A stretch of DNA of 35,602 nucleotides, from assembly GCF_017432245.1 (NCBI RefSeq), contig NZ_JAFRJO010000039.1:1-35602 (forward strand), in the 5' to 3' direction. A model generated the notes under the pieces. It saw only the letters and a program-made list of their open reading frames with translations, did no database searches and was not told the DNA's origin. The DNA is from Methanobrevibacter sp. Lineage in GTDB: Archaea > Methanobacteriota > Methanobacteria > Methanobacteriales > Methanobacteriaceae. Within the stretch, counting starts at the first letter, position 1. Every line of letters begins with the position of its first letter. Shown one piece after another: positions 8,376-10,885 of the stretch. A program made the translations under genes and the position numbers.

Positions 8376-9506
8376 TTGTCAAATAAATTCGCTTGGATCA
8401 TGTCCCCAAAGGCAAGCTGGGACGATAAGAAAGAATTCATCACAACAGCACTTGAATCAGGAATCGATTACGTTCTTGATACAGAAGACAGTGAAAACAT
8501 CAGGAAAGTTGGAAACTTCAAGATAATTTCCAATGATGACGATGCTGACATTTATTTAGTTGGAATTGACGGTGAAGGAGACGGCACTCTTGAGCTTAAG
8601 GACAACTTGAATGAATCAGCAGATTTAGCTAAAGCAAATGAAGCTAAAAACAGTGGAAAAACTGTCTGTGCCTATATAGTCATTACCGATAAGTTGCATG
8701 AGCAATTGGCAGTGACCTTAGGAAGAGTTGTTGATTATATAATCCTTGTAGCTACTGACTGGACAATCATTCCCCTTGAAAACATCATTGCAGACCTTCA
8801 AAAGGAAAATGTAAACATAATAGCTGCTGTAAAGACTGCAGATGATGCAAAAGTGGCTATGGAAACCTTGGAAGTGGGCACTGATGGAGTAATATTCGAG
8901 CCACAGGAATTTGCACAGATAAAAGACATTGCAAACTTGATTGATGAGCTTTCAACAGAAAGCTATGAGTTAAAAGACTTAACTATAAGCAATGTGGAAC
9001 CTGTAGGTTCTGGAGATAGAGTTTGCATCGATACAACAACCATGATGAAACCTGGAGAAGGAATGCTCATTGGTTCCTATTCTAAAGCAATGTTCTTTAT
9101 TCACAGCGAAAGCTTGGAAAGCGAATATGTGGCATCAAGACCGTTTAGAGTTAATGCTGGTCCTGTTCAAGCTTATGTCATGGTTCCAGGAAACAAGACA
9201 AGATACCTAAGCGAGCTTGAAACAGGTGATGAGGTATTGATTGTTGATGGTGATGGAAAGACCAAAAAGTCTATCGTAGGTAGATCCAAGATAGAAAAAA
9301 GGCCTCTTCTTTTGATTGAAGCGGAATATGAGGATATGAAAATAAGGTCATTGGTTCAAAATGCAGAAACCATAAGATTAGTCGATGAGAATGGTGAACC
9401 TATTTCCGTTTCAGTTTTAGAGCCTGGAATGAAAGTCAAAGGATTTATTGACGATAGTGCAAGACATTTTGGTATGGCGATTGATGAACAGATCATTGAA
9501 CAATAA
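8376..9506 (+). CDS. aroB': 3-dehydroquinate synthase II, archaeal type
   Basis: This is the second enzyme of the archaeal aromatic pathway. It oxidatively deaminates and cyclises the AroA' product to 3-dehydroquinate using NAD. Recognisable segments are the N-terminal [17 protein letters not shown], the central [61 protein letters not shown] and the C-terminal [11 protein letters not shown]. At 376 residues it is close to the family norm. The start is TTG at 8376, chosen because AAGGAGATTAAAA lies just upstream and the protein begins as relatives do. It is coupled to aroA' by proximity, and two hairpins follow the stop codon. Confidence 0.95.
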
Positions 9507-9517
9507 ACCACCTTTTA

Positions 9518-9532
9518 CTGGCCTTCGGCCAG
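9518..9532 (+). other. GC-rich hairpin after aroB'
   Basis: CTGGCC-TTC-GGCCAG is a perfect 6-bp stem with a 3-nt loop, 12 bases past the stop codon. It is unusually GC-rich for this genome and has no T-run of its own; it may protect the 3' end or act with the next hairpin. Confidence 0.45.
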
Positions 9533-9559
9533 CAAAAGCTGGACCAAAATTCTTTCACT

Positions 9560-9600
9560 AGTTGGGAGTATTAACTCTTAACTATTTTCTCTTTTTTTTA
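9560..9600 (+). terminator. Terminator of the aroA'-aroB' unit
   Basis: AGTTGGGAGT (9560-9569) pairs with ACTCTTAACT (9574-9583) across a 4-nt loop, using two G-U pairs on the plus strand. The T-rich tract 9585-9600 follows. The wobble pairs fit plus-strand RNA. Confidence 0.6.
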
Positions 9601-9743
9601 CTATTTTTTATCTTTTTTTTAAAATTTTATCATAAATTTATCATTTTTTAATTAATTATTCAAAATTAGTTAAATATTATAACAACATTAAAGCAATATT
9701 ATGGTAAAATAAGAATTTTTAAGTTGTTATATCCAAAATAAAC

Positions 9744-9809
9744 TATAAATAAAAGGAATTACATATTTTTATACCTAAATGTAAACTCTTTAAGTCCAGG
9801 AGGTGATAT
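9744..9809 (+). promoter_or_regulatory. TATA-like element and strong ribosome binding site ahead of the small ORF
   Basis: TATAAATA (9744-9751) within AACTATAAATAAAAGG would place transcription start near 9774. CCAGGAGGTGAT then sits three bases before the ATG at 9811, one of the strongest ribosome binding sites in the window. Together they argue that a transcript starts here and is translated. Confidence 0.5.
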
Positions 9810-9810
9810 T

Positions 9811-10008
9811 ATGCATTTTTGCTTTATTGCCATGAATTTGATTCATGATTATTTGAAGAAAATTCCCTCTGGCAAGTCTATAAAAATGGGGGTTCATTAT
9901 GTCTATCCAATCAAAGATTTGGTTGGCACTGGTCGTGTATCTCATTTATTTGTGGTGCATGGCCTTTATCATCATAATGATTGTATACAAATTGTTATGA
10001 GGTCATAA
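9811..10008 (+). CDS. Small protein of unknown function (65 residues)
   Basis: I do not recognise this protein. It is supported by a near-ideal GGAGGTGAT ribosome binding site three bases before the ATG, a TATA-like element at a suitable distance, and a base composition richer in G and C than the flanking intergenic DNA. It has five His in the C-terminal half, two Cys, hydrophobic stretches and no clear signal peptide or membrane span. The segment VGTGRVSHLFVVHGLYHH is its most distinctive part. It is followed within 10 bases by a series of strong stem-loops, so the reading frame and the structured RNA may be one transcript. Alternatively it could be the 5' part of a noncoding RNA with an accidental frame. 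Confidence 0.45.
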   Translation: MHFCFIAMNLIHDYLKKIPSGKSIKMGVHYVYPIKDLVGTGRVSHLFVVHGLYHHNDCIQIVMRS

Positions 10009-10014
10009 TGCCCC

Positions 10015-10120
10015 TTAAATTGTAGGAAAAAACATTATTGCAAGATTTTGTTTTTTAACAACTGCACCAAGTTGTTCTTGAGTTTCCTTTGACTTGCAAA
10101 GCTCACATCCTGCAATTTAA
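10015..10120 (+). ncRNA. Candidate structured RNA module 1 (three nested stems)
   Basis: TTAAATTGTAGGA (10015-10027) pairs with TCCTGCAATTTAA (10108-10120): 13 pairs with one U-G. Inside it, TTGCAAG (10038-10044) pairs with CTTGCAA (10093-10099). Inside that, AACAACT (10057-10063) pairs with AGTTGTT (10070-10076) across a 6-nt loop. The nesting of three stems of at least 7 bp in about 106 bases is hard to explain as chance. The U-G pair would be a C-A mismatch in the opposite transcript, so plus-strand RNA is favoured. No known RNA family is recognised. Confidence 0.55.
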
Positions 10121-10174
10121 AAAACCATTAAAAAAATTTAAATATCATTTTATTCATATTCATTATTAGAGTTT

Positions 10175-10197
10175 AAAAGTTTATTCATTAAACTTTT
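10175..10197 (+). repeat. Perfect 9-bp stem-loop between the two RNA modules
   Basis: AAAAGTTTA (10175-10183) and TAAACTTTT (10189-10197) flank a 5-nt loop. It is part of the same stem-loop series as 10015-10120 and 10221-10323. Confidence 0.45.
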
Positions 10198-10220
10198 GAC
10201 CCAACATTTTTATAGACTTT

Positions 10221-10323
10221 CAATATCTATTTGGTGTATTGTAGGATTTTTATCCTGCAATGTAGATATTGGGAATGATTTGAATCTTAATCCATTGGGA
10301 TTAGATTCATAAATCATTTTTTT
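10221..10323 (+). ncRNA. Candidate structured RNA module 2 with terminator-like 3' hairpin
   Basis: CAATATCTA (10221-10229) pairs with TAGATATTG (10263-10271). Within it ATTGTAGGA (10238-10246) pairs with TCCTGCAAT (10253-10261), again with one U-G pair, repeating the key stem of module 1. A second hairpin follows: AATGATTT (10274-10281) with AAATCATT (10311-10318), enclosing GAATCTTAATCC (10282-10293) with GGATTAGATTC (10298-10308), and then seven T. The long stem plus T-run looks like the end of a plus-strand transcript. Confidence 0.55.
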
Positions 10324-10363
10324 AAAAAATAAAAAATATGATTATTGCTCTTTTTTTAACATT

Positions 10364-10885
10364 TTAACGAAGATAATGGACTTTTTCCTTATCGATATCA
10401 TCAAGGGTGTAAGCTTCCATATGTCCATCTTCAATTCCTAATGCTAAAATACCGACTATTCTAAAGTAATCATCAATTCCTAAAATGTCACGCACAATGT
10501 CTTCAGATGATTTTCCTAATTTTGATTTCCTTAAATGGATTTGAATCCAGCAGCTTCCAACATCCTGTTCTGCTGCCATCAGATGCATGAATGCCAAAGC
10601 TATTGAGGAGTCTTCAATCCATGTATCAGAGACCTTGCTGTTTGCAATGACAGCTATTGCCTTGTTTGCATTCTTTACAAATGAAGCTCCAAATGCCTTT
10701 GATTTGCTTATTTTCTTTAATGTTTCCTTGTTATCAATAACTAAAAAATTGCATGGCTTCAGGTTTCTGCTTGTTGGAGCAAGGAGTCCTGCCTGCAGGA
10801 TCTTGTTCATTTTCTCATTTGGAATCTCTTCATCAGTGTATTTTCTCACGCTTCTTCTTTTTAGCATTACATCCAATAAATCCAT
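10364..10885 (-). CDS. Nitroreductase-family flavoprotein
   Basis: This 173-residue protein has nitroreductase-family features: the N-terminal FMN-phosphate motif RRSVRKYTDEEIP, LQAGLLAPTSRNLKPCNFLVID, the central SIALAFMHLMAAEQDVGSCWIQIH segment and a C-terminal VGILALGIEDG. Such proteins bind FMN as dimers and reduce nitro compounds, quinones or unsaturated substrates with NAD(P)H. The short form is common in methanogens, where substrates are undefined. GGATGATAAA precedes the ATG. It converges with the structured region at 10015-10323, whose terminator-like hairpin may also end this transcript. Confidence 0.9.
   Translation of the reverse strand: MDLLDVMLKRRSVRKYTDEEIPNEKMNKILQAGLLAPTSRNLKPCNFLVIDNKETLKKISKSKAFGASFVKNANKAIAVIANSKVSDTWIEDSSIALAFMHLMAAEQDVGSCWIQIHLRKSKLGKSSEDIVRDILGIDDYFRIVGILALGIEDGHMEAYTLDDIDKEKVHYLR

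Follow-up and report, generated by a model that had tools for sequence, protein, structure and literature searches.

Type I toxin-antitoxin systems have, in the open-licence literature searched, been reported from bacteria only; a paper from 2025 describes them as known from just three bacterial phyla and adds the cyanobacteria (PMC12390103). In the type I pairs ZorO/OrzO and TisB/IstR-1 of E. coli, and also in ShoB/OhsC and DinQ/AgrB, the toxin mRNA has a long 5' leader to which the sRNA from a separate gene nearby is complementary to a limited extent. These systems are furthermore characterised by a sequestered Shine-Dalgarno sequence (SD) of the toxin, ribosome standby, a membrane peptide of about 30 amino acids and the occurrence of orphan antitoxin loci (PMC4147584, PMC5668327, PMC11264685). 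The hok/mok/Sok system combines a leader ORF (mok) overlapping the toxin ORF with a highly structured mRNA and a locked toxin start (PMC5668327), and CreTA, found in archaea and bacteria, consists of a small gene pair for a toxin and an antitoxin RNA (PMC8501985). Here, we describe an archaeal locus that closely resembles ZorO/OrzO and TisB/IstR-1, orphan antitoxins included, with the toxin being putative, the separate sRNA gene predicted and the ribosome standby proposed. Based on its sequence and that of its relatives, it is probably (with a probability of roughly 0.78) a type I toxin-antitoxin module that belongs to archaea of the Methanobrevibacter type.

The window, which means the whole analysed stretch of 35,602 nucleotides, is contig C100 of an archaeal genome of 1.69 Mb in 104 contigs. 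The two-gene locus spans about 9744–10323 on the + strand and is situated between a 3-dehydroquinate synthase II gene (8376–9506, + strand) and a nitroreductase gene (10364–10885, − strand). Its 3' part is identical to a cluster of stem-loops at 10015–10323 highlighted in an earlier note on this DNA, which missed the upstream extension, a conserved ORF at 9899–10000 and a second promoter at 10137–10144. Directly 3' of the dehydroquinate synthase gene, at 9507–9630, lies a repeat (ACCACCTTTTACTGGCCTTCGGCCAGCAAAAGCTGGACC...) that is palindromic and resembles a REP element or a terminator. It occurs in very many copies genus-wide, with copies in G003 arranged head-to-tail at 44-bp spacing, and is unrelated to the mRNA-sRNA pair.

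A DNA search revealed a second copy of the locus in the same genome and further copies across many species of the genus; the named relatives are Methanobrevibacter, including M. olleyae. Across 44 copies the order of elements is constant: promoter 1, SD1, a segment upstream of SD2, SD2 with ORF2, a post-stop anti-SD element, a multi-stem module, a TATA box, a hairpin, a linker and finally the second stem of the sRNA part, which is of the type CAATATCTA/TAGATATTG.

The peptide mRNA is predicted to start at about 9774 from promoter 1, whose TATA box (TATAAATA, 9744–9751, + strand) is conserved in the genus copies. SD1 (AGGAGGTGAT, 9798–9807, + strand), a perfect complement of the anti-SD, is conserved in most copies and precedes ORF1, an overlapping leader frame of 65 codons (9811–10008, + strand). 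The TATA box, the ideal ribosome binding site and the 65-codon frame had all been recognised earlier and are indeed present. As a protein product, ORF1 had to be discarded: its length varies from 32 to 65 codons among relatives and it shows no sign of protein-level selection (pN/pS about 0.86). The conserved product is encoded in another frame by ORF2 (9899–10000, + strand), a single-span membrane peptide of 33 amino acids (MSIQSKIWLALVVYLIYLWCMAFIIIMIVYKLL) that represents the putative toxin. The pN/pS of ORF2 is 0.45 in frame, whereas the remaining frames give 0.80 and 1.04, which is sequence evidence for purifying selection on the peptide. ORF2 is conserved in every genus copy that retains the 5' half (single-orientation alignment), and a profile search also detected the peptide in a second genus, resulting in 49 distinct copies, mostly behind a GGAGG-type SD. 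In three copies ORF2 has no usable start codon, and ORF1 is there fused to it in frame. With 31–33 amino acids and a GRAVY of 1.2–1.9 across these peptides (1.9 in the window), ORF2 encodes a small hydrophobic protein, as type I systems do, which is conserved and under purifying selection. Searches of Pfam, NCBIfam and PADLOC yielded no meaningful match for ORF1 or ORF2, including the hok/Sok family in the case of the toxin.

Downstream of ORF2, all hairpins previously named in 10015–10323 are present in the sequence. On the + strand these comprise a 13-bp stem, TTAAATTGTAGGA/TCCTGCAATTTAA (10015–10027/10108–10120), which encloses further stems, the stem AAAAGTTTA/TAAACTTTT, a two-part hairpin at about 10220–10271 with the inner stem ATTGTAGGA (10238–10246)/TCCTGCAAT (10253–10261), and a bulged hairpin followed by seven T that ends at 10323. 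The fold of 10009–10330 is far more stable than that of shuffled sequences (z −6.9). That of 9780–10330 is still more extreme (z −9.75 on the + strand versus −4.8 on the − strand), in part because 9874–9896 pairs with 10197–10219, a long-range complementarity of 23 nt that is absent from the earlier note.

The three-stem fold at 10015–10120 (+ strand) forms a multi-stem 3' module of the mRNA. It shows compensatory changes in 41 relatives, with 91.7% of cells paired and double changes in 18 of 25 pairs, which was reached in 0 of 500 shuffles. Evidence for the stems of the sRNA part is weaker, with 91% of cells paired and few double changes. The covariance-model search that had been recommended retrieved homologues of both parts, in particular 64 copies of the mRNA module (model R2) and 83 places for the sRNA (model R1). 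The suggested Rfam check gave no family at gathering thresholds and only chance-level matches in an E-value search, and no tRNA or tmRNA was detected. The proposal of a new structured RNA on the + strand beside a small protein is thus borne out by conserved pairing in relatives and the lack of an Rfam family. As to whether it is a noncoding RNA or an mRNA with a structured 3' region, the latter holds for the mRNA and its 3' domain, but two transcription units are predicted instead of one RNA, and a single structured noncoding RNA was rejected in favour of two genes. A small minus-strand ORF in the module, read by eye, is not conserved and was dismissed.

The stem ATTGTAGGA occurs in both halves and had been proposed as a common binding site for a ligand or protein. 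This interpretation fails because many copies of the second genus keep the stem in the mRNA module, whereas the inner stem of their sRNA is an unrelated one, CAACATGT/ACATGTTG (alignments A4, A5). Judged from the sequences, the functional link between the two halves is antisense pairing.

According to the predicted fold, translation of ORF2 is locked in cis. The element CAUAAUGCCCC (10004–10014, + strand), located directly after the ORF2 stop, seals SD2 and AUG2, for which the unpaired probabilities in the window mRNA are 0.03 and 0.00, respectively. Over 44 copies, the medians of the predicted values are 0.03 for SD2 and 0.02 for AUG2, while the antisense target is open (0.62). With SD2 and the start of ORF2 sealed, ribosomes must therefore enter elsewhere, and SD1 would be the obvious place, either as entry or as standby site. 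In the window's genus, ORF1 starts at SD1 and extends over ORF2 in the same way as mok over hok. In the second genus, SD1 is often not followed by an ATG and in many copies lies inside a hairpin; an SD without a start codon in such a hairpin points to a standby site like that of tisB. The step from SD1 to SD2 would then be the one that the sRNA blocks. We infer this direction of regulation, as well as the role of SD1 in standby or as leader start, from the arrangement of the elements.

The region 10168–10323 is best read as a separate sRNA gene because it is preceded by a TATA box at a fixed offset and because solo and tandem copies exist. The TATA box of this promoter 2 (TTTAAATA, 10137–10144, + strand) recurs with at least 7 of 8 matching positions and an unchanged offset before 56 of 64 sRNAs, compared to a mean of 1.1 and a maximum of 5 in shuffles. 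The antitoxin-like sRNA (+ strand, model R1) has conserved pairing and a length of about 156 nt, and it ends in a terminator hairpin with T7; both of its ends are predicted. Copies of it also occur on their own, with no toxin, or arranged in tandem, and most of these retain the TATA box. Hence, mRNA and sRNA are presumably two separate transcripts.

The stand-alone genes show some further particularities. Two tandem sRNA genes in L138 (332–442 and 552–664) each have their own TATA box, and their linkers have no match among the toxin mRNAs recovered. Solo sRNAs of three species (L124, L126, L139) find their partners, at −26 to −28 kcal/mol, among toxin mRNAs that come from other species (L055, L050) and not among the toxin copies that were recovered from the genomes in which they reside. 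Sequences that fit foreign toxins in this way are as expected of anti-addiction antitoxin genes. A further solo sRNA resides on an identical 4,708-bp contig that appears in opposite orientation in the assemblies of two species (L159, L160; G072, G077). This contig is probably shared or misbinned, and was rejected as a plasmid as it has no terminal repeat and its ORFs look chromosomal. In L102 (G095:C31), about 0.7 kb separates two toxin-sRNA loci whose peptides score identically in the search, and a third sRNA lies upstream; this arrangement is a recent tandem duplication.

The target of the antisense pairing, AAGUCUAUAAAAAUGGGGGUUCA (9874–9896, + strand), includes SD2 (GGGGG, 9888–9892), and the corresponding linker of the sRNA, UGACCCAACAUUUUUAUAGACUU (10197–10219, + strand), has a core at 10201–10217 with an unpaired probability of 0.90. 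The core duplex in the window is a perfect 15 bp, AAGUCUAUAAAAAUG with CAUUUUUAUAGACUU. In most loci, the linker is complementary to the mRNA directly upstream of SD2 and often reaches into it. Linker and target sequences vary by locus while complementarity stays, and this locus-specific covariation of the duplex shows the sRNA to be complementary to the putative toxin mRNA, as type I antitoxins are. Among 18 non-redundant divergent loci, cognate pairs had a mean of −21.9 kcal/mol versus −13.4 kcal/mol for non-cognate ones, the own sRNA ranked first in 12 of the 18, and the observed total was reached by 0 of 100,000 permutations. Two of these loci (L051 and L107) had no good cognate pairing and have possibly decayed. 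Sequence covariation thus strongly supports the antisense pairing.

The mRNA module occurs in 64 copies in 46 of 151 genomes of the phylum and is confined to 2 of 20 genera; the sRNA, with its 83 places, is present in 51 of 138 genomes of the family and in the same two genera. Absences from single genomes are soft, because the assemblies are partly incomplete. The neighbouring genes vary among copies and reveal no tie to a fixed pathway. The site between the dehydroquinate synthase (aroB') and nitroreductase genes is occupied in G000, G002, G005, G015 and G016 and empty in G001, G007, G011 and G014; G004 has the same upstream gene, and its contig ends downstream. In G017, the 3' module and the sRNA have been kept, and the promoter has been lost together with both ORFs. 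The dehydroquinate synthase beside the locus in G015 (L157, L158) matches in two separate pieces, one with an internal TGA, which may reflect a disrupted gene or an assembly error. No copy of the locus was found in plasmid, phage and viral collections including IMG/VR, and a viral or plasmid origin was rejected on these grounds.

The covariation by itself fits an sRNA acting in trans and a cis fold-back within one long transcript alike. In the latter case, the 3' half would fold back on SD2 in a hok-like manner and there would be no separate antitoxin; the stable joint fold (z −9.75) agrees with this equally well. We regard it as improbable in view of the TATA box placed constantly before the sRNA half (56 of 64 copies), of its retention in stand-alone and tandem copies, and of solo sRNAs that match toxins elsewhere. 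Somewhat less improbable, albeit still unlikely, is a small membrane protein under sRNA control with an ordinary, non-toxic role. A single-span peptide may well regulate a membrane complex, and the toxicity of ORF2 is something that we infer; the double translation lock, the patchy multi-copy presence, the missing tie to a pathway and the orphan antitoxins are nevertheless typical of toxin-antitoxin systems.

A CreTA system, in which the downstream RNA would be a crRNA-like guide for Cascade, likewise has two small genes side by side and an antitoxin made of RNA, and is known from archaea (PMC8501985, PMC9458426). Type I Cas7 (PF05107) is present in 22 of 138 genomes of the family, but among the listed carriers of sRNA or toxin only in G003 and G014, and near-complete carriers such as G016 and G038 have none. 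Moreover, the linker matches the mRNA leader and not a promoter, and it is flanked by two unlike hairpins, which makes this explanation highly implausible; Cas6 (PF10040) was detected in 0 of 138 genomes and is hence uninformative on this question. Just as remote is a mobile or repeat element devoid of regulatory function. Several copies per genome and varied insertion sites would be in line with it, whereas the purifying selection on ORF2, the compensatory changes seen both within the module of the mRNA and in its duplex with the sRNA, and the lack of matches in plasmids, phages and IMG/VR are not.

Under the type I toxin-antitoxin reading, the mRNA from promoter 1 would encode the 31–33-aa membrane peptide as toxin, with SD2 and the start codon locked by the segment right after the stop and ribosomes entering at SD1. 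From there, ORF2 could be reached in two ways: ribosomes translate ORF1 and so pass the lock, or they stand by and slide. Promoter 2, downstream on the same strand, would drive the sRNA, whose exposed linker would pair over about 13–17 nt with the mRNA 5' of and into SD2, thereby blocking the SD1 route and probably triggering decay. If the sRNA were lost, the stable structured mRNA would be translated, the peptide would enter the membrane and growth arrest could follow.

This would likely be the first type I toxin-antitoxin family in Archaea, combining a new toxin peptide family and its own same-strand antisense sRNA with a ribosome site of the standby type, a lock in cis and a conserved RNA domain at the 3' end. 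Gain and loss would have spread it over two genera of gut methanogens, with orphan sRNAs serving as anti-addiction genes. If so, membrane toxins controlled by antisense RNA exist, or have re-evolved, in a domain whose membranes, RNases and way of initiating translation are different. Archaeal sRNA-mRNA pairs with a sequence-readable target are rare, and a set of them would become available, as would a candidate switch for growth arrest in methanogens of the rumen and gut. Since many toxin/antitoxin pairs occur naturally, specificity and the orphan anti-addiction role are open to direct test.

Compared to ZorO/OrzO and TisB/IstR-1, the archaeal locus is distinguished by archaeal promoters, by an sRNA that is encoded downstream on the same strand and not divergently, by the large multi-stem 3' module and the post-stop cis lock, and by a peptide without a family match. 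It differs from hok/mok/Sok in that the sRNA is not antisense-overlapping, the leader ORF is poorly conserved and absent from many copies, and the toxin has 31–33 amino acids. CreTA requires Cascade and CRISPR-like repeats, whereas most carriers of the archaeal locus are devoid of type I Cas7. The solo sRNAs, finally, have a counterpart in the orz-only loci known from E. coli (PMC11264685).
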